Assembly (NCBI RefSeq): GCF_019649055.1
Contig: NW_026570270.1
Span: 868,001 to 932,000, forward strand
From: Paramacrobiotus metropolitanus
Lineage: Eukaryota > Tardigrada > Eutardigrada > Parachela > Macrobiotidae
Direction of reading: 5' to 3'
DNA length: 64,000 nt
Shown here: one piece after another, positions 11,527-61,804 of the stretch
Layout: each line of letters begins with the position of its first letter
Numbering within the stretch: the stretch's first letter is position 1
Notes under the pieces: generated by a model
Seen by the model: only the letters and a program-made list of their open reading frames with translations
Told to the model about the DNA's origin: nothing
The model's database searches: none
Position numbers and translations under genes: made by a program

Positions 11527-13984
11527 ATGCAGATTTATTTATATTTTATTGCGTCCGTTGTCTGTCAATGGATATGTGTGCAGGCGGCTGCCAATTATTA
11601 TCCCGCCACGCCTCCTTCTGTCGTGGTACATGATGACACCTTCCGGCCGGATATTATACTGCGGGTGTCCGGAGTGGTGCTGGCGGTAGCCGACTGTACG
11701 AGCCGGTATTCCAGTGTGGTTAATGGGACGGCGCCCGGTCCGACGTTGCGGTTCAAGGAGGGCGATCGAGCGTGGATACGGGTGTATAATGATCATGACA
11801 ATGAGAACACAACCATAGTAAGTAACAGCCAGCAAAAGCCGAAAGCCACATAATCTGTATTTGAACCTTATGTTTTAACGCATGTAATTTAACAGAAAAC
11901 TTAATTGCTTGTACAGATATTAACTTATTGCCTGTTATTTTCTCTAAAATACGTTATTATTACGTCAAGTGTGTACGTTTTGAACACATAAGCTAACAGT
12001 ATATAGTAATTAACATAATATTTTCACTGCGTTTTTCATAACTTTTTAACAAACTTAGTTATATACAACAGTAATACAATTACGTCTATAATTTTATATT
12101 AACGTCTACCGGCGCAGCACTATTATCTACTGTATAAGAATTAAGCGAACTGGATGTTACCGATTAAAGTGCAGCATAACGGGCAACCTAATATATTTAA
12201 TAATAGGTTTTTTGCGACACCAAAAAGAAAATGTGTCGTATTTTTTAAAACATCCTATTCCGTTACAATCGGTTACAGTATATATAAAATAATTTAATAA
12301 ATAAAACTATATAGGTAAAACATGCACACCTGAAGTTTCTCAGAATTCATCATATCAGTTAATACGAGGTATATTTTACAGAGGTGTATTTACAGAGAAA
12401 TATCACTTTTTGCAGCATTGGCATGGATTAACCATGCGCACATCCCCGTTCTCAGACGGCACACCCATGGCCAGTCAATGGCCCATCCCGCCCCATCACT
12501 ACTTCGACTACGAATTCCAACTGCAACCCGGCGATGCCGGCACCTACTTTTATCACTCCCACGTCGGCTTCCAGGCCATCACCGCCAGCGGCGTTCTGAT
12601 CGTGGACGAGGCCGATGGCAAGAAACCTCCGTACGACTACGACGACGAACTGATCATCCTCTTCTCCGACGTCTACTTCCAGAACGACTCCTTCATGTTG
12701 AACGATTTAACCAGCCGTCCGTTCACGTGGAGCGGTGACCCGGATAACGTGGCCGTCAACGGAAAATCCCGCTCTCTTAACGCCACACAGGAGCAGCAAG
12801 GCTCTGGGTGTGAGATGGCCGTGCTGGATGTGGAGCCGAATAAAGCCTACCGGGTGCGGTTTATCGGGGGTACGGCGTTCTCTCAAGTATACGTCGCGTT
12901 TGAGGAACACGCATCGTTAGTACTGATCGAGATTGATGGGAAGTACGTCATGCCGCACGTGGTGGATCATTTAGAAGTTGTACCCGGACAACGTTACAGC
13001 GCTATTCTGTTCACGAAAACTGTTCAAGAATTAACGGGAGCCGATGGAAAAATCCGGGATCGCTTCTGGGTACAACTGGAAACCCGGTCACCGGACAATG
13101 ATACAACAGCGTACGCGATTTTACATTATAAGGTTAACTCCAACCCGGTGGACACGTTCACACTGCCGGCAACGAAACCGTTGACCGTCGCTAGCGAAAC
13201 CTTCACCGGTGGTTGGCTAGAGGATAAAATCCAGATGTACTATCCCGATCCGGGGAATCCATTCCCGCGGCTGGAAGAGGTCACCCGGCGGATCATTGTC
13301 AACGTCCAGGAAATTGTCACCAACGGGTCCATGGGGATCGGGGCGTTTTTCGAACAGTCCGGCTCGCCATGGTTCGAAACGATAACCAACACCATGGAAC
13401 CGTATCTCGTGTCGTTATACCGGAATAACACGGCCAACTTCCCGAACTACGAGAGGGCGCTGGCCAACGGCGGTTTCGACCCGGTGACCAAGACCTTCCC
13501 GGCCAAAATGGGGGAGGTCCTGGAGATTGTGTGGTACCTGATTGGGAATAATTTCACCGGGACGGTGGAGTCGCATCCCTGGCATATGCACGGGGATCAT
13601 TTTTACGACTGCGGTACCGGGAATGGGACGTACGATCCAGTGGCTAATGAGGCGCTGCTGGTGGCGCGACATGGGCGGATCACGCGGCGGGATACGTCGA
13701 ATATATACCGCCCGGCACCGTCGGACCAACAGACGTTGGGGCCGGGGGCGGTGTATAGTTGGCGGGCCATGCGCATCCGGGTGCAGAATCCCGGGGTGTG
13801 GATGATCCACTGCCACGCCCTGCAGCATATGATTATGGGCATGCAGACGGTGTGGGTGTTCGGGGATGTTAATGATGTCACACCGCTACCGAAGGATTTA
13901 GTAGACGGGTATTTTACGTTTGGTGGAGCGGCGTACGGGAATGCCAGCCGTGCGCCACGGGTGCTGCATTACTGGCATGATTAG
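11527..13984 (+). CDS. secreted multicopper oxidase, fungal ascorbate-oxidase-like (left copy)
   Basis: Two exons, 11527-11817 and 12416-13984, with a GTAAGT donor and TTTTTGCAG acceptor in phase 0; about 619 aa. Residues 1-20 are a signal peptide. All four copper-ligand motifs are present: HWHG (98-101, first codons of exon 2), YHSH (His144 and His146), HPWHMHG (from His484) and HCHALQHMIMGM (562-573) with the type-1 Cys563 and axial Met573. Such enzymes oxidise phenols, ascorbate or metals and reduce O2 to water. The C-terminal context (GDHFYDCGTGNGTYDP, NPGVWMIHCH, MGMQTVWVFGD) reads like ascomycete ascorbate oxidase/Abr1 proteins as I remember them rather than insect laccases, so horizontal origin is plausible. 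It is intact, and a near-identical inverted copy lies at 61805-64000. Substrate is not determined by sequence. Confidence 0.92.
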
Positions 13985-14979
13985 ATTTTTGTGAATGGCT
14001 GCTTTCTCTGTGATTATGACTCTTTATGAGCAGTACCGAAGAAAACTGTTGTGTATTTACCGTGTACAATACAGATACAAATAATAAGTGCAACGTGTAA
14101 TGGATGACTGTGCATTTTTGGCATTACCGGCAAAAAGCAAACTTTTCCAGGGTTATGCGGTGGATACAAATACAATCAAAATCAATGTTCCGATGTAATG
14201 CAGACATATCCAACAAAAGCTGTTTAACATAGCGATGGCAATTGGGATGTATGTGGGATATATTCCGGTTCAATGCACACAGTTTTTTGAGTTTATCATA
14301 AGTACGTACTTACATTTTTGAGCCGCGGACCCACGACGAATAACTGAGTACGTAATGTAGCTGGCTAAATTAATTACTACTAAGTATTTATTGGGTGTCG
14401 CATTACTATAGTGAACACCGGAGGTGCAGTTGTTGGATAAGCCAGATTGCTGCGTTATTGCTGATTTGCTAGCGGTGAGAATGACTTTGCACGATTTTCC
14501 CTGGTTCCTGAAACTGAGAAGGGTATTTATCGGGATTTCACCAGAATACCAGATAGCATGTGATGTTGTGATGCTATGCCTGAATTCCCGGCGGCTGACG
14601 GGAACGTGTGACCAGCGATCCGGATATCCGGAAAGGTCATTCTAACCATCGAATGATATGACATTGTGGTAAATACTTTTACGTGCACGCGGAGACGTTA
14701 AGGAAAAGCAGGCACAGGTGATCTCAGCCAAATGTCAAAACATGTTGGCACAAGAAGACGTACAAATTCCCGAAACCATAAAAATTTGATGGCCAATTAG
14801 ATTGTTGTGTACTGTAATTGATGTGGCGTACGGATGCTGTGCGTTCTCCAGCACCGGCACGACGTGGATCAGGGGGTGCATGGAGAGGAATAACCGGCAA
14901 GCCCGGCTCTCACTAGAGTAAGATGCACAGCCGGCGCTTTGCTGATCTCCAGCTGCGAATTTCTGCGCGTTCCTATATC

Positions 14980-14998
14980 GCTCTCTCTCTCTCTCTCT
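14980..14998. repeat. (CT)n microsatellite
   Basis: Run of CT dinucleotides, with an (AG)n counterpart near 60526-60546 in the inverted copy. Confidence 0.8.
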
Positions 14999-15083
14999 TT
15001 TCTATTCGAGGATCCTAAAATCATGGCGAGCAAAACATTAATAGATCATTAAGTGGGTGCATATTTGAAACAAAGCAGTTAGA

Positions 15084-15124
15084 TGAACAACATTACGTAC
15101 ACTTTAGGCACGTAATGTTGTTCA
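15084..15124. repeat. perfect 15-bp hairpin, present in one arm only
   Basis: Arms 15084-15098 (TGAACAACATTACGT) and 15110-15124 pair perfectly around an 11-nt loop. In the other inverted-repeat arm (about 60410-60455) only one arm is present; the other is replaced by unrelated bases. Confidence 0.85.
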
Positions 15125-15999
15125 CTGAACCGTTATAAATTTTTTATAGAAAACATAATTACCGATCTGTGACCTGCACATGCATGACAGCATAACGTCA
15201 GGTAGATCTGTAAACGGGACCCGCTAATTGCTCAACGAATGCACAGAGAGAGACGCGTAGTTCTTTTCCAGTTTAAAGTAAGGAACCCCTTTTTAATGTT
15301 CTTTATGCTGACGTCGTGACAGTTTGATTTATTGCCTGTCTGTACAATAGCCGCAATCCTTTCCTCATTCGTCAGTGCGATGTTTAATTTGTGCCCGGTA
15401 ATTTCTGTTTCCGGTGCTGTCTGACAATTTTTTTCTGAATGAACGGGTAGGAAATTTCCCTGGTTCTTTGTTCCGGTGCCATGCATATGTTTCCCTGCAT
15501 TATCTCACTTAGGTTATCATCTTGTAATCATAAGCCGTAAATTTTTCGACATCAGTAAAGCAGCAAGCCTGATTTCCGGTCTTCTTATCAACCCTTGTTG
15601 TGGACGGAGAACGCAACCCGGATTCAGCGTAATTTGGGGATAAACACAGGAAGAAACTGGCGTCCAGACGGCCTTGGTACGACCGGCAGGAAAATTATTT
15701 ACTGCCTCGGTACAGGAGAATGTCTGCCGGGGAATTGCTCCAAGATAATTTAATTGCGATCACGCCGTCAAATGATAAATTAATCAGACGGCATCGTATT
15801 GCAAAACAAATTATCCCGATCCAGCGCCATATAATGTGGAACCCGGCATTCTACTTCACAGCTTTGAAAATCAGTGCCATGCGAATTCGACCGATACTTC
15901 GCATAGCGCGGTTGTTGCACCCGCTTCATCGCTTTTCTAGCGTTTCCAAGGAGATCCTTAACTTGTGCTTTATCAGCCACATAGCGAATACTACACATC

Positions 16000-16973
16000 A
16001 TGGAAATATTTAACAATACATCCGTTTATCATAATACCACGGTGACCTTTTCATTCCGCGAACTGGCTGGAACCCTCTACTGATTCTTCAGTTATCCATA
16101 GCTGTTATATCCGTTATCTTAAACGCCATGATGCTCGTCCTGCAGTTTCTCCCGCAAACCCACGTGACCTCTTTCACTATCTACCTGATTGTCATCGCTA
16201 CCGGGAATATCGTCATCATGGTGGTCATGCGGCCCATCGGTGTGATGAACTCTTACACCGGCATCTGGCCAGGCGGACGGCCACTGTGTGCGGCATACAC
16301 TTACGCTCAGTTTGTCGTTAGTATGATCCCCGTACTCCTGCATGTCCTCATCGCCGTCAACCGCTTATGGGCGGTGACCTACCCCGTCCATTATCGTGCG
16401 CGTCACAATAAAAAAGTGGCTTTATTGCTATGCCTGGGCGTAATGGTCTACGTCCACATGGTGCACTTTCCGATTTTCTTGCTAGAATTCTACTATTTCG
16501 GTCCAGCGGGGAAGCAGACGGGCTGCCAGCCGGGGGAGGGCGGGATCATACAGTGGCGTCGCGCCGATTTTATTATCCATCGGATCATGCCGCTGTTTAC
16601 CATTCTTACTATTTACATCTACGTCATTATTAAGCGCTGGTTGAACCGACGCATTATTGCACACCAACCGGAAACGCATCCTAGTGCGGATGCTGATACG
16701 CCGAACGCTGATACCGCGGGGAGAAAATCTATAAGCCGCTTGAATCGCCGACAGCAGGATGGCATGGGTATACGACGCCGGACAGTGAAGCCGTTTATCG
16801 TTTTGGCCCTGACGTCCATCAACGTTATTGTCTGCTGGGTCCCGGCAGATACCGACTGGGCGCTACTATATTTGAATATGCGACCGCCGGCCTGGGCGCA
16901 CACCTTAACGGGGACTTTGTACTCGTTGCAGATGGTGTTCGACCCGTTGATGTGGCTGTTCAGCGTACGATAA
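16000..16973 (+). CDS. orphan rhodopsin-like GPCR, left copy, one-base N-terminal frameshift
   Basis: Intronless seven-TM receptor, 324 aa if one base is restored. The ATG at 16000 opens MEIFNNTSVYHNTT with N-glycosylation sites, but the T run at 16048-16051 has 4 bases where the inverted copy has 5, so the frame from the ATG breaks before TM1; TM1-TM7 are open from 16128. Landmarks: Cys in PLCAAY (ECL1/TM3), VNRLWAVTYP in place of DRY, GCQPGEGG in ECL2, VCWVPAD (CWxP) in TM6, and FDPLMWLFSVR-stop in place of NPxxY, with no tail. The paralogue at 58552-59524 has the reciprocal problem (intact start, broken TM7). It may be a functional gene with an assembly error, or a recent pseudogene. Ligand unknown. 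Confidence 0.8.
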
Positions 16974-17624
16974 CACCTGCTCATCAATAGCTACCCTAGC
17001 GTTAATTTCTTGTTTCGTTGTGCCGAAAAAATAACTGCATCACATCTCTACCGCTGCATCTGCTCTGCTCTGGCATATCTGCTTTAGACTAAATAATTCA
17101 ATTTTTGGTACGGGCCTACAATAATCTGATTAATTGCTTCAGCTCCGTCTTTTACCCGTAGTTATTTCTACGGTTACTCGCTCTTGGTAGTTATTACAAA
17201 TGTAAAATGTTTACGTCAAATAAGTACAGAGTGTACATGGCACCCGATGAAGAACAAGCAAAGGGCTTACAGAGTTGGCGTAATGCGTCAATCTTTTTCA
17301 AAAGCTTCTAGGGTAGTCTAGATTGAGCATTAATTTCACTCACAAATTTCTTTTGCCGATCGGGGACTCCGTATAACAGCCAGCGCTGCGCTTCGACGAT
17401 CTCAAGAATGATCACATCAAAATGCATGTACTCCTTAAACACATAAACACGAAAAGTGATTTGTATTAACCTTGATTAGATCGTGGACAGCGTCACAAAA
17501 TTACATCGAATAAATCAAACATAACCGGAGTTATCAAAATTGTACATATACTCAAACCATTTAGGAAAGCAAGAAAATAAATAATTTATTAAACATAGCT
17601 GTTCACCAGTTCGTGTTATCAATA
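16974..17624. other. intergenic DNA in left arm
   Basis: Spacer between the convergent GPCR and lactonase genes, matched at 57990-58551 in the other arm. Around 17515-17545 it holds the plain X-Y form of the site that is a twin palindrome in the right arm. Confidence 0.6.
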
Positions 17625-19686
17625 TCATGCAACGGTGCCGCTCGATTTTAACTTGCACCGAATACAAAACCTTTTCCGCCAACATATACAGCGTCTTCCT
17701 GCCCAGGCAATATTAGCCACTGGTCCGGGGAGGAATGGAAATAGTGCCGATAAACACTCCTCCGGGGTGTATACGCGTACTCCATTGCTGACGGTCACGT
17801 AAATGTTGCCCTTCTCATCCACTTTGACCGTATCCGGCACGCCCACATCGGTCCCCGTGGAAATGGGATCCAGCTCGGTCAGAACGGGAACACCTTTGTT
17901 GCCTTTGGACATGGCGAATACGTGCACGACAATGGGCACGGTGGCATCTGTGGAGCCGTTTCCGATTTGGAATCCTATTTGTTCATAAAACTGTCAATCG
18001 CACCTGCTAATACGGCAACGTAACGTATTGTACATACATATGATTAACGATACTACAGTCGAGATGTAACTATTGTTTACGTTATTTACCTGAATTAGCG
18101 ACGTACAGTCGCGATCCGTCAAGGGAAGGCGAAAGTCCATTCGGCCGGTAATTAGGAGGGAACTCCCAAATGCGTGTGACATTCAGACTTCTTTTGTCGG
18201 CAAAATAAACAGAAGGCGGCAACGTGTTCTTTGGTCGGAAGTTTTGATAGAAACCATAAGGCGGATCGGTGAAAAAGTAGCCATCGTACTGGTCGCTTAA
18301 TACAACATCGTTGGGACTACTAAAATCCAGATTTGGCTGTAGTGGCTGCAAAAGCAAAATGCAAAGTGAATTAATGATATTTTTTTGGCAGCAATATTGC
18401 GAAAGCATTTCACTGACGATTTTTGTAGCCACTAGTGTTTCGATATTCAGCCTCATCAACGAACCCGATGTCGCGTTATATCCTTGCGAACAGTAGACAA
18501 TCTCGTTCCGATTGATGCGTGCGCCTCCATTGGCCATCAGAATCGGGGGATTGGTTATCACTGTGACCGGCATTGCGTTCGGCGTCGCCACATTCAATTT
18601 AGAAATGCGAATATGTTCTTCTCCATTGCTGTTAATAAAGCGGTTGGACGAGAAATACAACTCGTTGGTGGTCTCCACAAACACCGGTCCTTCGTGAAAT
18701 ATCGCGTCGTTTGACTGGGATACTTGCCTAAATGTGTTCATGTCCACAATGTCCGATAAAGACACTGCCGGGTTTCCGGCATAGTTTTGTGGGGCCGCAT
18801 ATGCGGACGGTAATGCATAAGTCGGTATACTTGCCGGGGCAGATGGATAGGAACCTACCAGAGGGACCGGTGATGGAGGTGACGGATACGGTATGGGTGG
18901 GCCATGTGGTATCTGATAAGCTGGTAACAGAGAAATTTGATATCGTGGATAGAGTGCCGGATTTTGGTACGGGATGGGTTGCGGAACAGCATAATGCACG
19001 TCGGGAGGGGCATGATTGTAAGGATAGTAACTGCTATTGACCGGAGCTTCATTATAAGGGTACCAGCGCCGTCTGGGTAACGGTGCATAAGGGCCGGGAT
19101 AATTCTGACTGGTACCTCGTCAAACAACAAATCTTGCATAATTAACATCTATCGATGCATTTCATGCGTAAGTTATAATGCTACTCGTATAAAGTATTAT
19201 AAATTTTGTTACTTCCAGCTGGACAACAGTACACAAACCTCCACCGCTCTCCTTATGGGATTGTTGTTTAATTATCACCTGGTTCTTTTCAATAATTAAC
19301 AGTATTCTTCAGAAAAAACGGTTATATTATGATATGCATGTTTTTTTGCAATGTCTAAATATACTGCCGATTTTTCATACAAATTTCTACATATTTACCG
19401 CTACGTAAATACGCACATCCTTTTATTTGCATTTATGTCTACCTTGAACGCGGACAATGTAAGATCCATTCATAGCCCGCTGTAGTAGTGGGTCATACGT
19501 CACCGGCTTATAATCAGAGTTTGTTGGCACTGGAAAATAACTGGCACCGCCATCGCTGTTCCGGTTAAGATATCCGGCGTTATAATAACTTAACTGATGA
19601 TTCTCTGACAGGATAACACGTAAAACATAAGAAATAGCAATAAAACAATGCCAGTATAATTTCACAAACGTATAACGATTTCCCAT
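17625..19686 (-). CDS. secreted SMP-30/lactonohydrolase-like protein, copy 1
   Basis: Four exons: 19443-19686, 18418-19115, 18090-18345, 17625-17974; phases agree and the sum is 516 codons. Exon 1 starts at ATG 19686 with a signal-anchor-like stretch (YWHCFIAISYVLRVILS). Exon 2 begins with about 85 residues rich in Pro and Tyr, absent from copy 2, then the beta-propeller: FHEGPVFVE, LYFSSNRF, NGGAR, YCSQGYN, SSPNDVVLSDQYDGYFFTDPPYG (split here by residues I summarise), RPNGLSPSLDGSRLYVANSG, VPDTVKVDEKGNIYVTVSNG. These are hallmarks of gluconolactonase/lactonohydrolase enzymes (metal-dependent lactone hydrolysis), best matched in my memory by fungal proteins. The exon 2 donor is GTCAGT. Relative to copy 2 a 12-residue segment near VYTP is read in a shifted frame that then recovers; the last ~25 residues are shifted by one missing G at 17698-17699. 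Confidence 0.82.
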
Positions 19687-27974: not shown

Positions 27975-29156
27975 CAGAAACAGGTTTTTTTCAAATATTG
28001 ATAAACAAACGGGAATGCACTGATATTTGTAGATGGATGGTGACAATCTCGAGCTCCAAATATACAGTAACTGCCGTCTTTAGTAGAGACAAAAGGATCG
28101 CGGAAACTGATTTGTAATTTTAATTGTGCTCAAATGAATTTCGATGTTTGCATCAGACCCTGGATTCCGGAATATGAGGATGTAATCCAAATGAACCATG
28201 AGAAAGGAAGTTAATTTCCTGTATGAATTAACAGAAAAGATAACAGCCTACACATGACGCGCGTGGACATTTACTGCGCTTGTCTGTCTGAGAATCAATG
28301 AGATTTGCGGTAATATTCCAGGCCAAATAACAAGACATTCAACGACGACTGCCATGCTATAATTATGACCTTTTTGATGCTTACGCAATAACATATCAAA
28401 ACAATAGATGCAATCCGAAAACAAGAAAAAAACCAGCTGGTGATCGCTTTGTGCGGGAATCAAAGAAAACCGACCTTATGACGCACTACGCCGCCGATAA
28501 GAAAAGAAAGTAATCCGCTCACTTCTGCTCGTTTGCATAAGTCTTACGTATACGTAGATGTAGAGTGTAGAGATATCGCAATTGCAAGGCTAACCGCTTG
28601 GCGTACGCAATCGATTTCCTGCTTATGCACTGGGATACGGTCAAGACTACAACGGAGGTATCTGTCTCCGCATTTGTCAGTTCATTTTTAACCAGCTCCT
28701 CCCAGCAAGAATTCTATTATGTGGTTACATCATTAATTGGATCGTTTAGTGGCAGTTGCCGGTGCCGACGTAAACAAGCCTATCGGAAAGGAGGTAAACC
28801 ATATTTCTTTTAAAAGCTGTCCAATATTCCGGCATATTTGAAAAGGCAGCATTCAACGGTACGATACCAGTATCCGGGACAACCGAGATTCTGTAAAGTA
28901 GCCGTAATTACGGCAGTCATGGCAAGCAAAAGTATGTAGCGGTTAAAGGTCATCCTGACGCTGTTCTCATGTTAACACTCGAACAGTGGCTGGCCAAACT
29001 ACTTTCGCGGACCACCTATTCCAGACATCCGATCCATCGTCTCCAGCACTCTTATAACAACAATCGTGCACGGTTTTTCGCTTCCTGGAAAAGTGATAGT
29101 GGCGTAAGCGCTTGTATAATCAAGCTAATTAACGCGTTAACACAAGTTAGCAGCGT

Positions 29157-29192
29157 GCAAATCCGTACAACGAGCTCGTTGTACGGATTTGC
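29157..29192. repeat. perfect 36-bp palindrome (first of twin pair)
   Basis: Left arm GCAAATCCGTACAACGAG (29157-29174) is followed without spacer by its exact reverse complement. The paralogous site near 40085 has only the left arm. Confidence 0.97.
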
Positions 29193-29202
29193 AAATTAGG
29201 TT

Positions 29203-29240
29203 AGCTGAACAAATTAGGCTCGAGCCTAATTTGTTCAGCT
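29203..29240. repeat. perfect 38-bp palindrome (second of twin pair)
   Basis: Left arm AGCTGAACAAATTAGGCTC (29203-29221) followed without spacer by its exact reverse complement. The paralogous site near 40105 has only the right arm. Ten bases separate it from the first palindrome. Confidence 0.97.
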
Positions 29241-29492: not shown

Positions 29493-30461
29493 ATGAATTC
29501 CACTAGCAACACTACAATTACCTTCAACACCACTCAGCCGGCAGCTGCACCATCAGGCTGGACGCCCGTCCTGGTCATGATGGCCCTCATTGCTGGTATC
29601 TCATTTTCATTAAACGCCGTCATGCTCCTGCTACAGTTCCTCCCGCAAACCCGCATCACATCCTTCACCGTGTACCTGATTGCCATATCCATTGGAAATC
29701 TCGGCTATTTAGCCATCGTCCGGCCGATCGGGATTATGACCACCGCAACGGGAGCATTCCCCGGCGGTTTGGCATTATGTATGTTTTACATGTACGTGCA
29801 GTTTGTCATCTGTCAATTGCCGGTACTGGTGCACGCCCTCATCTCCATCAACCGGTTCTGGGCGATCAGGTACCCCGTATCCTACCGGCATCGTCATCAT
29901 AAAAAGATGGCCATTTCGTTGTGCGCCGGCGTGCTGCTGTACGTCCACGTGGTGCAGTTTCCTATGCTCATGGTGGAATACTTAAGTATCAGCCCTATCA
30001 AGGAAGGTTGCCAGGTGACCAGCGCCTCGTGGATGCCCTGGCGCATCGCCGATATCGTTCTGCATCGCTTCGTGCCGCTGATTCTAGTCATCGGAATTTA
30101 CATCTACATTATTGTCACGAAATGGAAAAAGAAGCGTGCTGTTGATCACCACGAAATGAGCGCCGTCTCCACGCAGAATGGCACAGTTTTCACGAAGGCA
30201 GATATTGTCGAGGATGATGATGAAAGGGCCGCCGAAAAGAAACCCAAAGGGAAGAAGTCCCCAGGGAAGAAGCGGCAGGTTAAGCCGTTTATCGTACTAA
30301 CGATGACCTCAGTTTCCGTGCTGCTGTGCTGGATTCCGCGGATGTGTATTGGACGATGCTGTACGTGGGATTCCGCCTGGCTGGGCCTACACAATAATCA
30401 GTACTTTATACAGTCTGCAAATGATTTTCGACCCTCTGATGTGGATGATTAGCCTGAAATA
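29493..30461 (+). pseudogene. orphan rhodopsin-like GPCR D, frame broken in TM6-TM7
   Basis: Intronless. TM1-TM6 are open from ATG 29493 (MNSTSNTTITFNTT). Landmarks: ALCMFYMY, INRFWAIRYP at the DRY position, KEGCQVTS in ECL2, acidic/basic third loop, LCWIP in TM6. Just after LCWIP a G is missing (CCGCG at about 30337 where the paralogue has CCGGCG) and roughly four further bases are missing near 30375, so the frame ends at 30452 rather than giving FDPLMWMISLK; the expected stop is 30459-30461. More than one lesion makes decay more likely than a single sequencing error, yet the rest is well kept. Closest relative is H. Confidence 0.75.
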
Positions 30462-38869: not shown

Positions 38870-40372
38870 TAAAGCGATTCCAAAACCGAATGTCTAACAA
38901 ATACATTAGGAAAATGTTGATAACCGAACTCGAAATCGTTGCGGTGCGCTGGTATTTGCAGATACATGGCGATATTCACAAAATCTAATTTTCGCGCTTA
39001 GTCGATTAGCAGATGCAACCAATCACGTTAGAAACTGATCAGTCTGTTTTAATTGTTTCCTGAGAATTTTTGTTGTTTACATCTGAGTGGAGCCGGAATT
39101 TCGGGATCTGAGGATGTAATCCGAATGGACGATAAGAAAGGTATAAATTTACTTCCTATGTGAATTTCAATTAGCAGAAAAAAATATCAGCCTAAAGATG
39201 ACGCACATGCCACAGCGTGTGATGTTAGGCTGCAGCTGTTGTCGAAATATTCCAGGCTTAACCACTCCCTTTCGGCGCCAAATAATTAGACATTCAACGA
39301 CAACTATCATGCTGTGTGACCTTCTCGACAACAGCAGGGGTTGCACCATGAACAGAAGAAAAAAACTAACTAGTGATCACTTTGAGCGGAATTTGTGAAG
39401 AAAACTGGACTTATGACGCATGATGTTGCAGATATGAAGAGAGAATGATCCGGTCACTGCTGTTGAGTTGAAATGCATAAATGTCTTACAAATAATTATA
39501 CGTAGGGATTAAGCCTGTTCAGTTAGGCGTCAGCAAAATCAGTTTCCTGTTTATGCTCAAGACTATAAGTGAAATACATGTCCCGCCTTCTCCCGTTCTT
39601 CGTTAAGCACGTCCCTCCCACAAGAGTTCAGTTTATGTGGTGTTCTGCCTACATTAATTTGCTCTTTCAGTTACAGACTTGCAGTTACCGGTTATGACCT
39701 AAGCAGGCTAATCCGAAAGAAGGTAAACCGTGCTTCTTTTAAAAGCTGCCCTGTATACGTGCTCCGGCACATTCGAAAGCTCAGCATTCAGCGTTACGAA
39801 ACCAGTATACGCGACATCTGAGATTTTGCAAGTTAATTACAACTATGACATGTAAAAGTGTAGTGGTTAAAGGTCATCCTGACGTTGTTGCTATTTCAGG
39901 CACTTTAAAAGTGGCTGGCATTACTGCTTTCGCGGACCACGTACCTATTCCATACATCCGATCCCTCGCCTTCACTACTCTTGTAACAACTATCGTGCAC
40001 CTTTATCGCTTTCTGGAAAAGTGACAGTGGCGTAAGCACTTGTGTAATCAAGCTTATTAACGTATAAATCCCGATTAACAGCGTTGAAATCCGTAAAACG
40101 AGGCTAATTTGATCAGCTCATCATTGCATCAGCGGAATATAAGACGACGACCATGTGATGGATGTGGTGGAATGCTGGCATCAATTTCCTGATTTCCTAC
40201 GACTAAATGTCACCGGATTTTGGAACATGCCAAAAGTATTTAACGGCCTGCTGCAGGACATGTGAAGGTCAGGTATTCCTTTTGCAAATACATTCTCGTA
40301 AAACCGTCTACATGGACGTTGACCTTTGATGCGAGTTCTCCAACTTTTCCATGGTGAACGGATCATTGAAAA
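38870..40372. other. 5' region between GPCR relics G and H
   Basis: Paralogous to 28047-29492. Keeps AAAGGTCA at 39869 and 40320. At about 40085-40120 the site of the twin palindromes is in its plain form. Confidence 0.55.
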
Positions 40373-41372: not shown

Positions 41373-41512
41373 CCAAGGAACGCCATCTGCAGTTTTCATA
41401 ACTTGTGCATTTGTTGATTATTAAAATTATAAGAATGACTTGTTTCTACTATTGAACGGAAAACCTTTTCAGTAACTCATATGAGCACGTTTCAGTTACA
41501 TGGATCACAGAT

Positions 41513-41679
41513 ATTTAATGATGCGTTCCTTTAAATTTCTCACCAGTGTTTTCGTAACCTCTTGTCGCGCGCCGATTGAAACACTTGACATCTCTGGAAA
41601 AGGGTGCAGTTTATGGTTGGGTAAAAATAGATAGGTTCATTGCGACCGTTAAATAAACCTCATTAATCGTTGAAAAATT
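41513..41679 (+). repeat. host-derived flanking duplication, left copy (~167 bp)
   Basis: Begins ATTTAATGATGCGTTCC and ends CGTTGAAAAATT; recurs immediately beyond the other end of the retrotransposon (46103-46258). It is host DNA because a diverged single copy lies in the paralogous flank at about 30620. Confidence 0.9.
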
Positions 41680-41902
41680 CCCAAACACAATTCAAGCAGC
41701 CACAGAACTAACTTTCAGACTCTGCGCTCAGCTACATCAATCGCACAACAACGTACACAAACTTTCCGTGATACTATCCATGACATACAGTGCTACAGCT
41801 GACCACTGCCCAAGCGCCCACCGGCGCCCAACCGCATCTCCGATCCGCCTTTCGTTCTTCTCCGCTGTCTTAACCGGAATTAGCTCGGCTAATTCTATTT
41901 AA
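41675..41902 (-). repeat. terminal direct repeat of retrotransposon (3' side)
   Basis: About 228 bp matching 45878-46108 with only a few small differences. Ends with TTAACCGGAATTAGCTCGGC and TAATTC, a near-palindrome. Confidence 0.93.
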
Positions 41903-41954
41903 GACAGGCTCATGAACTCCTCAGCAATGATGACTTTAGTAGTTTGGGGGTTAA

Positions 41955-42045
41955 TACATAGTATCGATGTCCTATGTAACCGACGCAGCGGATCCAATAG
42001 GTCATCTCCACAAAAGGTAACCGACACAGCGGATCCATTACACAC
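41955..42045. repeat. short tandem repeat inside element 3' region
   Basis: GTAACCGAC(G/A)CAGCGGATCC occurs twice about 47 bp apart, between the terminal repeat and the recombinase stop. Possibly part of the split direct repeat system of PAT-like elements. Confidence 0.6.
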
Positions 42046-42078
42046 TTCCAAAACAACCCCCCAAAACCCCCAAATGCG

Positions 42079-42998
42079 TCAAACATAGGGCCGCAAACCG
42101 TCAAGAGGCTTGGTGGAGCGGATATAACCTTGATACGCATCGCTCTTCCACCGACCGGAACGCTTAATACAGATATCCGACTGGTGACAGTTGGCAGCAG
42201 TAGTCGCAGCTCCGATACGGAAGCTGTGCGGTGTAATACAGCCAAGTGTAGGAATACCGTGCACAAGCGCCTTCAACATGCCGGCGAAGCGAGAGCGAGA
42301 GAGAAATGCCATCCCGAAAAGTAAATGGGATAACTATTAGGATAATCAAATCGTTACGCAATATGTGATATTTAGATAGACCGAAAGGGGCACACAGATC
42401 AGCAGACAGAGAAACGACCGAACCTTGAGCAAACTGGTCACTTTTAGATCGCTTAATAGAAAGTAAAACTGCAGATTTCTGAAAGGTTACATCAGACAGC
42501 AACAAGGTAGAATAAGCTTGGAAAGAGCGTTTGTGCGACGACGTAAACTCACACGGACGAAGGAAGCCAGTATGCAGCATTACAAGCTGCCCAAAATAAC
42601 GACTTATCGTAAAGTGTCCACTGAGAATCATTAAGACCGCGCTTAATTAATCTCATGACATCCAATGATACCGGTAATCTTTTATCGCACCGAGGCGGAC
42701 GGAGCCGCGCATAGCCTTTAACCGCGCGAGTAATAACAAGCGAGTTTGTGAAATCAAGACTTCCATGCTCACACAGCCAGTTAGAAATACCAGATACATA
42801 TACACGAAGCGTGGCATAAGATTTATTAGACTCGAACAAATATGCAATGAAACGCAACAAAGATGTGCAGCTAAGCTGATATTTGCGTTGCTGGCAAAAG
42901 TTGCGATAAGTGGTAAAGCCAATACTGTAAACGGACCGAGAAGAGGATGCAATATGATTTTTTAATAACAATTTAATAGTAGAATCCATGCTATTCAA
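42079..42998 (-). CDS. tyrosine recombinase of the retrotransposon, frame broken
   Basis: Reads in three overlapping frames, about 300 codons in all. N-terminal helical SAM-like part (YSIGFTTYRNFCQQ), then the catalytic set: Arg in GFLRPCEF, H-x-x-R in TPHSFRIGAATTAA and the Tyr in SDAYQGYIRS. These residues cut and rejoin DNA through a 3'-phosphotyrosyl link to integrate the circular cDNA. Breaks lie near 42570 and near 42320. Either small indel errors or inactivation. Confidence 0.85.
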
Positions 42999-44620
42999 TC
43001 AATAACTCATTCAACACATCCGGTACGAACTCAGGGTTAGCATTAGCATTAGGACAAAGCTGACGAAATTTAACTAGCTGACCGCGTGATAAAGCATCGG
43101 CAACATGATTCGACAAACCAGATATGTGAAGAAGACGTAAATTAAAGTTATGTTGAGCTGCACAGAAAAATATTTTCCGCATAACACTGTTTACTTGCAA
43201 ATTAGCAGAGCAAAACTTAGACCATGCCTGCACAACAGCGAGATTATCAGAATGTAACTGAACTTTCTTGCCGGCCAGTAACGTTCCCCATAGCAGACAG
43301 GCAATGTACACAGGAATTACTTCACAAAGTGCGATACCATACTCCGCCATAACCACGCCAGCTGGCCATTTAACAGAAAACCAACGACCGGCAAAATAAC
43401 CACCGATACCAAACGATAACGATGCGTCAGTGTATAACTGCAACACATCCGCATTTGACCAATCCACATCTATGAACGAATTAGTGCCGTTCCATGTCGG
43501 CAAGAAATCGCGCCACCACTGTATATCCGCATGGAAAGCGGCATCCAGCAGGACTGTATCCAGCTGATTATGCAGCAAATTAATCATACGACGCAAAAAC
43601 AACCGGCCAACCGGCACACATTTGGCAGCAAACTGCAATTTGCCAATGATGCTTTGTAGCTCGGTTTTGGAACACGTAATACGATCCGCCCACTGGTTAA
43701 GTAATAAAATAAGCTCAGCCAACTTTTTAGACGGCAAAGAGATCGTACCGGCAACTGAATCGAGCACAATACCCAGAAAGGTCAAGGCAGTTGCCGGACC
43801 TTCCGTCTTTTCTACTGCCAAAGGAACACCAAGGGCGCCACATAAATCAATAAAACTGTCAAGTATAACCCGACACTGTGCCGATGCAGCCATGCCAATC
43901 AAAAGAAAATCATCCACATAAGAGTAAAATCCACTCGTGATGGGTGATATTCGATAAGATCCAGTGGATTGCATCGGAAAATAAACAGAACAAATAAGGG
44001 GAAGAACGCGAGCCGAACGGTAATACAATATCAAAATAGTATCCATTTCCCACACGATAACCGAGGAGATGCCAATCTTCACGCCGAACTGGCACCAGTC
44101 TAAACGCATGTTTTATATCTAATTTAACCATAATGGCGCCTTTACCAGCTGTCTTTAGGTAGCGGATAGCATCATCAACCGTACAATAAGAAACAGTATA
44201 CGTGTGACGGTCAATGCAGTCATTAACAGATGTGCCAGACGGAGCTGACAGATTATTAATGATTCGATGTCCACCTGACGCTTTAGGAATAACGCCCAGA
44301 GAATTGCAGACAAAATTAATTAGCGGCGGCTTGTCAAACGGACCAACTGAGTGGCCTAATGACACTTCCTTCTGCACAGACTGTAACAAAATATCATGAT
44401 GCAAAACTGCCGATTTCATATTAGGCACTGACCAAGATACGCGGGACCGGTATAACCAATATCCGCTCCATTTAATAAGATATCAGATATCTGCGCAACA
44501 AACAACCGATCTGGGTGGTCTGCCAATAACTGGACAAACTTCTCACGACGAAGCGGAGTTGCCGGTTTTGTTGGCATCAAGAACTTCATAACAGGAATAG
44601 AAACCGTGTCCTCCACGGCC
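42991..44620 (-). CDS. reverse transcriptase-RNase H of the retrotransposon, frame broken
   Basis: Polymerase frame overlaps the end of gag. RT blocks include NFVCNSLGVIPK, MVKLDIKHAFRLVPV, LPFGSRSSPYLF and the catalytic YVDDFLLIG; the RNase H part has LYTDASLSFGIGGYF (catalytic Asp), an acidic CEVIPVY and HSDNLAVV. One break at 44443-44445 fits a missing base in a C/G run and another at 43926-43929 an extra base in a T/A run, since removing or adding one base joins family-like residues. Ends at 42991, abutting the recombinase gene. Confidence 0.88.
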
Positions 44621-45705
44621 GCAATGGGAGCAGAAATGACGAAGTTTCTTTCGGCATGGTGTTGAACAGATTCCATCGTTGAACTCCTGACAAATGACTT
44701 TTCCCACACTACCGGAACCGTTTTTTCGATCCCCGCCGGCCGCTGCCGGCCGGTCACGAAAAAGCTGTGTGTTGCTCCGGCTAGTACTGGCAACACCCAC
44801 AGCCGGCCGCATCCAACACTCACGAGCAAAATGACCAATACGGCCGCAGTTATTACAAGCACCGCGCTGCGGTTCCGGTAGGCGTTGCGTCTGCTGTATT
44901 TCCGGTAAACGTTGCATCTGGAAAGACTGCCGAAAGATTTCTTGATCGGATGTCTCCCATATAGCCACGTTAAACGGCTGCGTACGAGCAAACATGCGGA
45001 ATCGATGGTCGTACCCCAACCACTGGTTAACAGAGTAACCACTGGCCGCAAAACTTGCCATTACACTCAAGTACTTAATCAGCGGAAGCCGCATATCAGG
45101 ATAATAATGCGTACGATGAGCCATAAACACGGAGTATGCGCTCACCCACTGCGCAAATGATTCAATCGGTGGCGGCTTACGGACTTTTTATCCCGAACAG
45201 AATAATACTGGAAGTCTGTGGCGGCGAGCAGTTCAGCAAAATCAACGTATCGTTCATTACTGCGCAGATCAGCTTCAATGGACGGATCCACTGCCGGCAA
45301 ATTCAAGAATGGACCAAGGCGCGCACTTACTGGAAGCTTCGGTAAAACAACAGGCGACGAGCAATCACTGATTAAAATGCTGTCACGCTGACCAACATCC
45401 GGCGACACATCAGACTGAGGCGGGCGGTGATGCCGGGCAGATGTCAACATGTCGATCTGAGCTTGCAATTCGTTTTGTCTTTGAAGCAGAGACTCCACGG
45501 AAGGCGATATACGGGAGCGTGACTTTTTCCTGGGAGGTGAAACTGACTTTTCACTCTTACCGGCAATACGATAAAGTGTCCCTGTAGATTCATCCGACTC
45601 ATCAGACAGCGCTGAAGACGTACCTTTCGCGGACACTTCCGGCAGAGAAGACACAGAAGCGATTTGCGATCTCAAACGACGCGACATTGCAACAAAATTA
45701 ACCAA
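44543..45705 (-). CDS. gag-like protein of the retrotransposon, frame broken once
   Basis: The N-terminal part (from 45705) is Ser-rich and basic with a short coiled stretch (SLLQRQNELQAQIDML). The C-terminal part has a CCHC zinc knuckle (CNNCGRIGHFAREC) and a second Cys/His cluster (CSHCGRGGHGFYSC). The two parts meet at the T/A run 45185-45189, which looks one base short; with six bases the frames join. Binds element RNA by analogy with other gag proteins. Confidence 0.82.
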
Positions 45706-45877
45706 AAACGAATCAGCGAAAATTCATAAATCGTCAATTACGATAACATAGATTGGAAACTCGAGAAACTGATCATAGGAAACACAAGCAGCACGATAAA
45801 GGTCATCACGAAGCCGGTAATATAATGCCCTAAGCTTACAACCACGGCACAGCTTATACCATAGCATTCTTCCCAAG

Positions 45878-46108
45878 AAATTCCCAAACACAATTCAAGC
45901 AGCCACAGAACTAACTTTCAGACTCTGCGCTCAGCTACATCAATCGCACAACAACGTACACAAACTTTCCGTGATACTATCCATGACATACAGTGCTACA
46001 GCTGACCACTGCCCAAGCGCCCCACCGGCGCCCAACCGCATCTCCCCGATCCGCCTTTCGTCCTTCTCCGCTGTCTTAACCGGAATTAGCTCGGCTAATT
46101 CTATTTAA
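45878..46108 (-). repeat. terminal direct repeat of retrotransposon (5' side)
   Basis: About 231 bp, see the opposite copy at 41675-41902. Confidence 0.93.
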
Positions 46109-46258
46109 TGATGCGTTCCTTTAAATTTCTCACCAGTGTTTTCGTAACCTCTTGTCGCGCGCCGATTGAAACACTTGAATTCTGCAGTTTATGGTGCGGG
46201 TAAAAATAGATAGGTTCATTGCGACCGTTAAATAAACCTCATTAATCGTTGAAAAATT
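46103..46258 (+). repeat. host-derived flanking duplication, right copy (~156 bp)
   Basis: Same sequence as 41513-41679 but lacking about 12-15 bp near its middle and with a few other changes. Confidence 0.9.
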
Positions 46259-56132: not shown

Positions 56133-56403
56133 ATTTAGATAAATGTTGTGCATTTGAGAGAGCCGCTTTTACATTGCAAAAAAACATGCATATCATAATA
56201 TAACCGTTTTTTCTGAAGAATACTGTTAATTATTGAAAAGAACCAGGTGATAATTAAACAACAATCCCATAAGAAGAGCGGTGGAGGTTTGTGTACTGTT
56301 GTCCAGCTGGAAGTAACAAAATTTATAATATACGAGTAGCATTATAACTTACGCATGAAATGCATCGATGGATGTTAATTATGCAAGATTTGTTGTTGAC
56401 TAG

Positions 56404-57989
56404 GTACCAGTCAGAATTATCCCGGCCCTCATGCACCGTTACCCAGACGGCGCTGGTACCCTTATAACGAAGCTCCGGTCAATAACAGTTACCATCCTTA
56501 CAATAATGCCCCTCCCGACGTGCATTATGCTGTTCCGCAACCCATCCCGTACCAAAATCCGGCACCCTATCCACGATATCAAATTTCTCTGTTACCAGCT
56601 TATCAGATACCACAGGGCCCACCCATACCGTATCCGTCACCTCCATCACCGGTCCCTCTGGTAGGTTCCTATCCATCTGCCCCGGCAATTATACCGACTT
56701 ATGCATTACCGTCCGCATAGTGGCCCCATTAAAGCTATGCCGGAAACCCGGCAGTGTCTTTATCGGACATTGTGGACATGAACACATTTAGGCAAGTATC
56801 CCAGTCAAACGACGCGATATTTCACGAAGGACCGGTGTTTGTGGAGACCACCAACGAGTTGTATTTCTCGTCCAACCGCTTTATTAACAGCAATGGAGAA
56901 GAACATATTCGCATTTCTAAATTGAATGGCGACGCCGAACGCAATGCCGGTCACAGTGATAACCAATCCCCGATTCTGATGGCCAATGGAGGCGCACGCA
57001 TCAATCGGAACGAGATTGTCTACTGTTCGCAAGGATATAACGCGACATCGGGTTCGTTGATGAGGCTGAATATCGAAACACTAGTGGCTACAAAAATCGT
57101 CAGTGAAATGCTTTCGCAATATTGCTGCCAAAAAAATATCATTAATTCACTTTGCATTTTGCTTTTGCAGCCACTACAGCCAAATCTGGATTTTAGTAGT
57201 CCCAACGATGTTGTATTAAGCGACCAGTACGATGGCTACTTTTCACCGATCCGCCTTATGGTTTCTATCAAAACTTCCGACCAAAGAACACGTTGCCGCC
57301 TTCTGTTTATTTTGCCGACAAAAGAAGTCTGAATGTCACACGCATTTGGGAGTTCCCTCCTAATTACCGGCCGAATGGACTTTCGCCTTCCCTTGACGGA
57401 TCGCGACTGTACGTCGCTAATTCAGGTAAATAACGTAAACAATAGTTACATCTCGACTGTAGTATCGTTAATCATATGTATGTACAATACGTTACGTTGC
57501 CGTATTAGCAGGTGCGATTGACAGTTTTATGAACAAATAGGATTCCAAATCGGAAACGGCTCCACAGATGCCACCGTGCCCATTGTCGTGCACGTATTCG
57601 CCATGTCCAAAGGCAACAAAGGTGTTCCCGTTCTGACCGAGCTGGATCCCATTTCCACGGGGACCGATGTGGGCGTGCCGGATACGGTCAAAGTGGATGA
57701 GAAGGCAACATTTACGTGACCGTCAGCAATGGAGTACGTATACACCCCGGAGGAGTGTTTATCGGCACTATTTCCATTCCTCCCCGGACCAGTGGCTAAT
57801 ATTGCCTGGGCAGGGAAGACGCTGTATATGTTGGCGGAAAAGGTTTTGTATTCGGTGCAAGTTAAAATCGAGCGGCACCGTTGCATGATATTGATAACAC
57901 GAACTGGTGAACAGCTATGTTTAATAAATTATTTATTTTCTTGCTTTCCTAAATGGTTTGAGTATATGTACAATTTTGATAACTCCTAG
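56404..57989 (+). pseudogene. lactonohydrolase-like copy 3, 5'-truncated
   Basis: Right-arm copy of copy 1. Exon 1 with the signal peptide is missing because the duplication boundary falls in intron 1. In exon 2 a TAG interrupts the Pro/Tyr region (PSA-stop near 56720). In exon 2 a two-base and a one-base loss cancel out, giving an altered segment around KLNGDAERNAG. One T is missing near 57243 and one G near 57703. It shares the compensated frame change near VYTP with copy 1 but keeps the GGG that copy 1 lost, reading WAGKTLYMLAEKVLYSVQ. Probably not producing a secreted enzyme. Confidence 0.85.
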
Positions 57990-58000
57990 GAGTTATCAAA
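57975..58000. repeat. perfect 26-bp palindrome (first of second twin pair)
   Basis: TTTGATAACTCCT and its exact reverse complement. The left-arm counterpart near 17535 has only TTTGATAACTCC followed by unrelated bases. Confidence 0.95.
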
Positions 58001-58014
58001 CAGGCCTGTTTGAT
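57995..58014. repeat. perfect 20-bp palindrome (second of second twin pair)
   Basis: ATCAAACAGGCCTGTTTGAT, sharing the six bases ATCAAA with the first palindrome. The left arm has only GTTTGAT here. Confidence 0.95.
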
Positions 58015-58551
58015 TTATTCGATGTAATTTTGTGACGCTGTCCACGATCTAATCAAGGTTAATACAAATCACTTTTCGTGTTTATGTGTTTAAGGAGTAC
58101 ATGCATTTTTGATGTGATCATTCTTGAGATCGTCGAAGCGCAGCGCTGGCTGTTATACGGAGTCCCCGATCGGCAAAAGAAATTTGTGAGTGAAATTAAT
58201 GCTCAATCTAGACTACCCTAGAAGCTTTTGAAAAAGATTGACGCATTACGCCAACTCTGTAAGCCCTTTGCTTGTTCTTCATCGGGTGCCATGTACTGTA
58301 CTTATTTGACGTAAACATTTTACATTTGTAATAACTACCAAGAGCGAGTAACCGTAGAAATAACTACGGGTAAAAGACGGAGCTGAAGCAATTAATCAGA
58401 TTATTGTAGGCCCGTACCAAAAATTGAATTATTTAGTCTAAAGCAGATATGCCAGAGCAGAGCAGATGCAGCGGTAGAGATGTGATGCAGTTATTTTTTC
58501 GGCACAACGAAACAAGAAATTAACGCTAGGGTAGCTATTGATGAGCAGGTG

Positions 58552-59524
58552 TTATCGTACGCTGAACAGCCACATCAACGGGTCGAACACCATCTGCAAC
58601 GAGTACAAAGTCCCCGTTAAGGTGCGCCCAGGCCGGCGGTCGCATATTCAAATATAGTAGCGCCCAGTCGGTATCTGCCGGGACCCAGCAGACAATAACG
58701 TTGATGAACGTCAGGGCCAAAACGATAAACGGCTTCACTGTCCGGCGTCGTATACCCATGCCATCCTGCTGTCGGCGATTCAAGCGGCTTATAGATTTTC
58801 TCCCCGCGGTATCAGCGTTCGGCGTATCAGCATCCGCACTGGGATGCGTTTCCGGTTGGTGTGCAATAATGCGTCGGTTCAACCAGCGCTTAATAATGAC
58901 GTAGATGTAAATAGTAAGTATGGTAAAAAGCGGCACGATCCGATGGATAATAAAATCGGCGCGACGCCACTGTATGATCCCGCCCTCCCCCGGCTGGCAG
59001 CCCGTCTGCTTCCCCGCTGGACCGAAATAGTAGAATTCTAGCAAGAAAATCGGAAAGTGCACCATGTGGACGTAGACCATTACGCCGAGGCATAACAATA
59101 AAGCCACTTTTTTATTATGACGCGCACGATAATGGACGGGGTAAGTGACCGCCCATAAACGGTTGACGGCGATGAGGACATGCAGCAGTACGGGGATCAT
59201 ACTAACGACAAACTGAGCGTAAGTGTATGCCGCACACAGTGGCCGTCCGCCTGGCCAGATGCCGGTGTAGGAGTTCATCACACCGATGGGTCGCATGACC
59301 ACCATGATGACGATATTCCCGGTGGCGATGACAATCAGGTAGATAGTGAAAGAGGTCACGTGGGTTTGCGGGAGAAATTGCAGGACGAGCATCATGGCGT
59401 TTAAGATAACGGATATAACGGCTATGGATAACTGAAGAATCAGTAGAGGGTTCCAGCCAGTTCGCGGAATGAAAAAGGTCACCGTGGTATTATGATAAAC
59501 GGATGTATTATTAAATATTTCCAT
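58552..59524 (-). CDS. orphan rhodopsin-like GPCR K, right copy, two-base deletion before TM7
   Basis: Right-arm counterpart of GPCR A. ATG 59524 and the N-terminus through TM6 (VCWVPAD) are open. Just before TM7 an AC is missing (GCGCACC versus GCGCACACC, near 58625), so the read frame runs on to 58535 as AHLNGDFVLV and so on instead of TLTGTLYSLQMVFDPLMWLFSVR; the proper stop is at 58552-58554. With two bases restored the length is 324 aa, the same as A. Loss of TM7 should destroy function if real. Confidence 0.8.
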
Positions 59525-61804
59525 GATGTGTAGTATTCGCTATGTGGCTGATAAAGCACAAGTTAAGGATCTCCCTTGGAAACGGTAGAAAGCGATGAAG
59601 CGGGTGCAACTACCGCGCTATGCGAAGTATCGGTCGAATTCGCATGGCACTGATTTTCAAAGCTGTGAAGTAGAATGCCGGGTTCCACATTATATGGCGC
59701 TGGATCGGGATAATTTGTTTTTGCAATACGATGCCGTCTGATTAATTTATCATTTGACGGCGTGATCGCAATTAAATTATTTTGGAGCAGTTCCCCGGCA
59801 GACATTCTCCTGTACCGAGGCAGTAAATAATTTTCCTGCCGGTCGTACCAAGGCCGTCTGGACGCCAGTTTCTTCCTGTGTTTATCCCCAAATTACGCTG
59901 AATCCTGGTTGCGTTCTCCGTCCACAACAAAGGTTGATAAGAAGACCGGAAATCAGGCTTGCTGCTTTACTGATGTCGAAAAATTTACGGTTTATGATTA
60001 CAAGATGATAACCTAAGTGAGATAATGCAAGGAAACATATGCATGGCACCGGAACAAAGAACCAGGGAAATTTCCTACCCGTTCATTCAGAAAAAAATTG
60101 TCAGACAGCACCGGAAACACAGATTGCCGGGCACAAATTAAACATCGCACTGACGAATGAGGAAAGGATTGCGGCTATTGTACAGACAGGCAATAAATCA
60201 GGCTGTCACGACGTCAGCATAAAGAACATTAAAAAGGGGTTCCTTACTTTAAACTGGAAAAGAACTACCGCGTCTCTCTCTGTGCATTCGTTGAGCAATT
60301 AGCGGCTCCAGTTTACAGATCCACCTGGCGCTATGCTATCATGCATGTGCAGGTCCCAGATCGGTAATTACGTTTTCTTTAAAAAATTTATAACGGTTCA
60401 ATGAAACAACATTACGTGCTTAAAGTGTACTACTAATCATTTGACTGCTTTGTTTCAAATATGCACCCACTTAATGATATGTTAATGTTTTGCTCGCCGT
60501 GATTTTGGGATCCTCGAAAAGAAAAGAGAGAGAGAGAGAGAGAGAGCGATATACGAACGCGTAGAAATTCGCAGCTGGAGATCAGCAAAGCGCCGGCTGT
60601 GCACCTTACTCTAGTGGGAGCCGGGCTTGCCGGTTATTCCTCTCCGTGCACCCACTGATCCACGTCGTGTCGGTGCTGGAGAGCGCACAGCACCCCTACG
60701 CCAAATGAACTACACAAACAATCTAATTGGACATTAAATTTTTATGGTTTCTGGAATTTATATGTCTTCTTTTGCCAACATGTTTTGACATTTGGCTGAG
60801 ATCACCTGTGCCTGCTTTTCCTTAACGTCTCAGCGTGCACGTAAAAGTATTTACCGCAATGTCATATCATTCGATGCTTAGAATGACCTTTCCGGATATC
60901 CGGATCGAGTGGTCCCACCGTCCCGTCAGCTGGTTCGATAGGATTTCTCATCGCCAGATCATCACTGCTATCTGGTATCGTTCTGGTGAATCCCGATAAC
61001 CATTCTCTCAGCATTTAGGAATGAAGGGACAAAATCGTGCAATTGTCATGTCTCGTCCGCATAGCTGTAGTATAACACTGACACTAACGGCAGTCAGTCT
61101 CCGTCTGGACTCATTCTTCCACGGTAATATCCGGATCGCTGTCACGTTCCGTCAGCCGCCAAGAGAGCATCACATGCTATCTGGTATTCTGGTAATAAAC
61201 ACTTCTCAGTGAACCCAATCGCAAAGTCATACCCAATAAATATAGTACTCGTACTCAGCTGCGTATGCAGTTATTCGTCAAGTGTCCGCGGTAAAAAAAT
61301 GTACTCAATTAATAAACTCAAAAACAGTGTGCATTAAAGAGACGCATCCCACATAAATCACCAGCGCTACTTTCAAACTGCAAGCAGCGCTTGTTGGGAA
61401 CTTTGCGCTGTCTGCATCTAATAAATCGAAACATTTGATTGTACTACGTAGTACATGTATCCGCCGGGTAACTCCAGAAAATTTTGCTTTTCCTTGGAAA
61501 CAGTCTTCCGATGGAAAGGCAGTATAAAAGTGTTTCGGTTCATTAAAAAGTATTTCTTTGCCAAATTAACTGCATTACTGCAACAAAAAAGTGAATGGAA
61601 TCGGTTTCTATAAAGATAGAATAACTGGAGTACTGTATCTCTACAAGTATAGGTATGTTGTAATACCTAATTAAATGCACAGTCTTCGATTACACGTTGC
61701 CCTTATTGCTCCTTCATTACTGTACACGGTAAATACACAACAGTTTTCTTCGGTACTGCTCATAAAGAGTCATAATCACAGAGAAAGCAGCCACTCACAA
61801 AAAT
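59525..61804. other. intergenic DNA inside right arm
   Basis: Mirror of 13985-15999. Contains the (AG)n run (60526-60546), the kept GC-rich block at about 60590-60700 and AAAGGTCA reverse at 60894. The region 60950-61200 is more diverged than the rest of the arm. No gene called. Confidence 0.5.

Follow-up and report, generated by a model that had tools for sequence, protein, structure and literature searches.

Two twin palindromes of the same plan are found in the window, the whole stretch of 64,000 nucleotides analysed here (C50:868001–932000). They represent a real, repeated mutational scar, and the formation of a hairpin on both ends of a break is its best explanation. Each twin was probably left by a single break with a 3-nt stagger, the ends of which were both closed into hairpins and nicked away from the tip before the resulting tails were end-joined, the scar being heritable.

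Structure of the two sites and their alleles

Site 1 consists of two perfect, spacer-free palindromes (29156–29193 and 29203–29240) with arms of 19 nucleotides each and a gap of 9 bp between them. The original prediction had correctly recognized two spacer-free palindromes here, but gave their sizes as 36 and 38 bp and their distance as 10 bp; both are 38 bp. A start codon of a rhodopsin-family gene, GPCR D, is ca. 250 bp downstream, and a related gene in the window is GPCR H. The earlier naming as GPCR is borne out by a match of the protein encoded downstream to Pfam 7tm_1 (E 5.8e-21). The parts of site 1 and its paralogue in the window are:

29156–29174, plus strand: X, the left arm of palindrome 1, with GAG at its end; in C168 no X' stands beside X
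29172–29174, plus strand: left-hand GAG of the 3-bp duplication (the right-hand one is 29222–29224; the X-Y form has one GAG)
29175–29193, minus strand: X', an inverted copy of X with no spacer; missing from the D copy of C168 and from the H copies of C50, C248 and C168
29194–29202, plus strand: 9-bp filler, AATTAGGTT; its AATTAGG recurs within Y' at 29212–29218
29203–29221, minus strand: Y', an inverted copy of Y, with the T variant of its own flank (C168 has C, H has A)
29222–29240, plus strand: Y, the right arm of palindrome 2, with GAG at its start
40084–40119, plus strand: paralogous X-Y site 5' of GPCR H, taken as the ancestral form

The assembly searched contains 169.8 Mb in 533 contigs, and six copies of site 1 in it cover most of the 401-bp query. 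Two of them, the D copies of C50 and C248, have the twin form, on contigs that differ around the twin. The D copy of C168 has 352 bases against 401 of the query, and the three H copies have 345–347 against 392. All four of these have the X-Y form (C168 D, C50 H and C248 H as aligned, C168 H as read). Given its presence in C168 D and in H on three contigs, X-Y is taken as the ancestral form at site 1.

The H flank reads X-Y as originally described, but X does not simply abut Y: GAG is common to both, and the overlap of X and Y, exactly 3 bp, had been missed. In alignment, the twin form differs from X-Y by a 50-bp gap, made up of a 47-bp insert and a 3-bp duplication. GAG stands at the end of X and at the start of Y but only once in X-Y, and the derived allele thus reads X, the 47-bp insert with GAG duplicated, and Y. 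Where C168 has C and H has A, Y' has the T of the flank beside it and was thus copied from its own sequence. Seven of the nine nucleotides of the filler (AATTAGG) match the other tail, and an inverted match to the filler is also present locally.

GPCR D (window 29493–30452) is frame-shifted near its end on C50, which may be an assembly error; on C248 and C168 it encodes 324 aa.

Site 2, a second twin palindrome that the original prediction had missed, follows the same plan:

57975–58000: palindrome 1 of site 2, arms of 13 nucleotides, no spacer; CCT at 57985–57987
57995–58014: palindrome 2 of site 2, arms of 10 nucleotides, no spacer; second CCT at 58005–58007
17377–17666, minus strand: inverted paralogue of site 2 on C50, with another lesion at the same place, near 17522–17526

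The two palindromes of site 2 overlap by 6 nucleotides, ATCAAA (57995–58000), which are common to both. Four copies over most of the query were returned by the genome search, and the twin form is on one contig (C50). The C168 allele is X-Y and 20 bp shorter, with X and Y overlapping by CCT (3 bp), and X-Y is likewise the form of the inverted paralogue on C248; given these two copies, it is taken as ancestral here as well. What was observed directly is the structure of the twins and of the X-Y forms, along with the duplicated 3 bp, the microhomology and the match of the filler.

The inverted paralogue of site 2 on C50 reads AACTC-CGGTTAT-GTTTG where the ancestral form is AACTCCTGTTTG. The GTTAT in this lesion is the inverse of ATAAC in the X of site 2. 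It may be a second, independent lesion, or a twin copy that has decayed by three small deletions. The paralogue belongs to an inverted duplication (11777–19354 and 56171–64000 in the window), the copies of which are ca. 40 kb apart and 94–96% identical and contain a multicopper oxidase gene (Pfam Cu-oxidase) and GPCR-like reading frames.

Other large differences among the contigs are found in the region. A retroelement-like stretch at ca. 41512–46258 in the window contains a zinc-knuckle reading frame, with a repeat of ca. 170 and 230 bp at both ends; a second frame looks by eye like a reverse transcriptase/RNase H and has no Pfam match. Most of this stretch aligns to C168 (97%), and the part of C248 that was compared matches its ends only. 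On C248, ca. 26 kb (C248:42332–68620) lie between sequences that adjoin on C50 near 33050.

Frequency of spacer-free palindromes

Exactly four spacer-free palindromes with arms of at least 9 nucleotides occur in the window, and these are both members of sites 1 and 2. First-order surrogates of the window (20 runs) had a mean of 0.2 with arms of at least 9 and 0.0 with arms of at least 10, against 4 and 4 observed. The window was picked for twin 1, so twin 2 alone is an unprompted find.

A larger sample of 308,588 bases was made up of the window, 64,588 bases of C168, 70,000 of C248 and 110,000 from eleven other contigs. With two-letter repeats excluded, it has 14 spacer-free palindromes with arms of at least 8 and 6 with arms of at least 10, compared to means of 5.5 and 0.55 in second-order surrogates (20 runs). 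Counting as a pair two palindromes with arms of at least 8 and axes no more than 80 bp apart, again excluding two-letter repeats, there are four pairs: two are twin 1, seen on two contigs, and the others are twin 2 and a weak pair (L040). That such pairs exceed chance frequency, as the original prediction implied, thus holds in this sample, which includes the window (4 pairs against 0 in the 20 surrogates).

Three of the four pairs – twin 1 twice and twin 2 once – keep the 3-bp rule. Among 59 neighbouring pairs collected under a looser threshold (arms of at least 5, axes no more than 80 bp apart; 278,588 bases), the rule is kept only in the three long twins, of which two are independent. No clear third twin was found in the 110,000 bases of the eleven other contigs, and only two independent events are proven.

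The weak pair (L040:705–749) has spacer-free palindromes with arms of 8 and 8, 13 bp apart, which break the 3-bp rule; it is possibly a third twin without the 3-bp overlap. It sits just beyond a reading frame with a weak, below-cut-off match to 7tm_1. Among the seven partial paralogues listed, none spans the site, and all three that were read diverge before it. A lone inverted repeat with no partner (L026:9769–9819; arms of 25, 1-bp centre) is evidence that near-spacer-free repeats can also occur untwinned; the genome search gave no other copy of it.

A covariance model of the twins (four random synthetic palindromes) gave a weak match to the D twin with filters off (18.3 bits, E 0.04). Site 2 scored below 9 bits with filters off, and there was no match with filters on. 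The twins were also compared to the other indels of at least 8 bp in gapped alignments of haplotypes and paralogues, insertions between separate alignment pieces being left out. These indels have inverted flank matches of 8 nucleotides or fewer, apart from one 277-bp insert with 10, and the twins were rejected as ordinary indels.

Proposed repair route, trigger and alternatives

Any explanation of the twins has to account jointly for spacer-free axes in four of four cases, two ends that are alike, a 3-bp duplication found twice, and microhomology or filler that is confined to the centre. In the route proposed here, a double-strand break staggered by 3 nt would, after fill-in, carry the same 3 bp on both ends, and each end would then be closed into a covalent hairpin. 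A nick inside the stem – ca. 19 nt from the tip at site 1, and at least 13 and at least 10 nt from it at site 2 – would open the hairpins, leaving a single-stranded palindromic tail on each end. Polymerase-theta-like end joining, dependent on microhomology, would then link the tails, via the 6 nt of ATCAAA at site 2 and via the 9-nt filler, 7 nt of which match the other tail, at site 1. We infer that hairpins were sealed, where they were nicked and which enzymes took part. A single staggered break would place the turn-round points exactly 3 bp apart at both sites, and filling in and hairpin-sealing such a break would yield the duplication and the spacer-free axes together.

The original prediction had suggested a break between X and Y with two hairpin caps and end joining, and this is still the best fit, now with a second case and a 3-bp stagger seen twice. 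Its alternative, folding back and copying of the ends, fits less well: priming by a folded end requires a tip able to pair and leaves a loop. Here the inverted copy is flush with the end, with no spacer, at all four axes, and self-complementarity over 2, 4 or 6 nt is absent from all four 3' tips when each is compared to itself. Priming of the turn-round by a tip annealed to itself is for that reason unlikely. At the joints, microhomology of at least 6 nt was found in 38 of 20,000 random junctions, and a match of at least 7 nt to the tails in 245 of 20,000 random 9-mers from the window; at about 1%, a 7-nt match of the filler is no great rarity.

The break may have been made by a transposase that duplicates 3 bp of its target, or by another source. 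A cut-and-paste transposon of this kind, excised from X-Y with a hairpin left on each flank and a footprint in which the P nucleotides are unusually long, is a tentative candidate with somewhat less than an even chance. This reading does not compete with two-hairpin repair but is a specific form of it in which the trigger is named. Elements of this kind leave a 3-bp duplication, and transposase domains are present in the genome (with fragments counted, at least 134 matches of PIF/Harbinger type, at least 53 of hAT and at least 1 of CACTA type), though hAT duplications are 8 bp long rather than 3 bp. The different lesion at the same base in the second copy of site 2 is what repeated excision from one insertion would yield. 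However, an element between X and Y is present in none of the six copies of site 1 or the four copies of site 2 returned over most of the query. GAG and CCT are also unlike the TTA/TAA duplication of the PIF-type element mPing, which in yeast, among 110 events selected as ADE2 revertants, was excised precisely in 109 (passages of PMC2836001). For the families with 3-bp duplications, the literature passages on them do not describe flanking hairpins.

An insertion of ca. 685–690 bp on C168 was considered as the responsible transposon and rejected, since four other copies of it are flanked by TTAA and so have no 3-bp duplication. This insertion (C168:187680–188364, L014:2680–3364) is a haplotype-specific MITE of ca. 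685 bp with a nearly full-length inverted repeat. The four other copies fetched, from a search in which 40 of 1932 candidates were scored, have TTAA flanks and start with GGGAAGTGGGCC. At 21385 and at 46706 in the window and in the homologous positions of C168 and C248, each of the three haplotypes has a small indel of its own at the same place, a pattern that repeated repair or excision would give.

The genome has five matches to the POLQ-type helical domain at two loci, which may be POLQ and HELQ. The single match to a DNA-PKcs domain means that the Artemis route, with its short P tracts, may also exist, a point against the proposed route. An Mre11-type nuclease is a candidate for the nick: ends capped by a hairpin are resolved by nucleases of this type, and in vitro the cut of MRX-Sae2 falls 15–20 nt from a blocked end, near the 19-nt arms of site 1 (passages of PMC6315862). 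The same passages place in vivo incisions much further from the ends and describe purified MRX as weak on hairpin-capped ends unless RPA is bound. A rule by which some germline breaks of this animal would receive a hairpin on either side and be nicked at a fixed distance, ca. 20 nt inside the end and not at the tip, as by an Mre11-type nuclease, is an unlikely extension of the proposed route. If it were true, twin palindromes would be a readable signature of hairpin-capped break repair, not bound to one transposon.

Template switching during replication would need no double-strand break: the nascent strand would turn at X, copy X', jump, copy Y' and turn again. This is improbable, although template switching does make and maintain perfect hairpins in other genomes (passages of PMC8794818), and X', Y' and the filler all have inverted counterparts nearby. 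A single switch would give one inverted segment; the insert contains both X' and Y', plus the filler at site 1. Several switches would thus be needed per event, two of them spacer-free turn-rounds, and this reading offers no reason for a 3-bp turn-round spacing at both sites. According to the same source, switching between strands is possible as well, and this would presumably need no loop; four-nucleotide loops are found there in 56% of the rRNA hairpins with instantaneous compensatory changes (passages of PMC8794818).

Much less probable still is an artefact of sequencing or assembly. The P. metropolitanus assembly was produced with Canu from nanopore (R9.4) sequencing of ca. 3000 pooled animals (passages of PMC8277472), and twin 2 is seen on a single contig. 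Twin 1, however, is on two contigs with differing surroundings, both sites have clean allelic forms, and no base-calling error known to us makes a pair of perfect palindromes of 38 bp together with a consistent duplication of 3 bp. The insertion of a palindromic functional element, regulatory or small and mobile, at X-Y was rejected as extremely unlikely: although site 1 is ca. 250 bp upstream of a GPCR D start codon, the inserts are built from their own flanks and differ between the sites, the D reading frame is intact both with the twin (C248) and without it (C168), and genome searches, which a copy of 20–50 bp could escape, found no copy of the insert other than C248 D.

Comparison with known systems

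Ends capped by hairpins occur in V(D)J recombination, in hAT transposition and in yeast mutants, and those of V(D)J recombination are opened near the tip. Transposon-made hairpins in yeast, reportedly described by Yu et al. in 2004, may bear directly on the twin palindromes. By analogy, the twins would work like the P nucleotides of V(D)J or hAT joints, with far longer arms.

The likeness to V(D)J P nucleotides is in the palindromic copy of the end, flush with it, in the off-centre opening of a hairpin, and in the possibility of both ends being affected. The difference is in length: V(D)J P nucleotides are 1–3 nt long, most often 2, where the analysis itself went no further than 3 nt (passages of PMC3528771), and the arms here are 10–19. 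The short P tracts of an Artemis-like opening (1–3 nt) are not what is seen at the two sites, where the arms are 19, 19, 13 and 10. Unlike V(D)J coding joints, the twins also have a 3-bp duplication.

The target duplication of hAT elements is 8 bp, and their usual footprints are much shorter than the arms of the twins. At both sites the overlap is 3 bp, and no 8-bp duplication is seen. Like the twins, the excision footprints of the hAT element Ac/Ds contain palindromic copies of flanking DNA, which are taken as evidence of hairpins (passages of PMC4561436). With PIF/Harbinger elements the twins share a target duplication of 3 bp (GAG, CCT), for which a 3-nt 5' staggered cut has been proposed (passages of PMC4561436). 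They are unlike them in its sequence, the mPing target being usually TTA/TAA-like, though animal elements may differ, and unlike mPing in the outcome of repair, which was precise in all but one of the selected yeast events; a hairpin route is not mentioned in the passages cited for these elements.

Foldback inversions and snap-back joining resemble the twins in having an inverted copy of the sequence adjacent to the break. The listed set from yeast sae2 has loops of at least 3 nt at the axis (passages of PMC7467729), unlike the twins, in which the loop is 0 at all four axes. The central microhomology of site 2 (6 nt) and the partly templated filler of site 1 (7 of 9 nt) are like those of polymerase-theta end joining, which by itself leaves the spacer-free inverted copies at both ends unexplained. 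Foldback inversions usually affect one end, and both are affected here. Among the matches listed from open-licence PMC titles and abstract openings, none describes paired spacer-free palindromes flush with a 3-bp duplication.

If they stem from repair of two hairpin-capped ends, the twins, with paired arms of 10–19 bp flush with a 3-bp stagger, would document that both ends had formed hairpins in the germline of an animal and that these were opened well away from the tip. Scars of this kind are easy to look for and can be counted in any long-read genome, and in a tardigrade such scars could be tested against desiccation or transposon activity.
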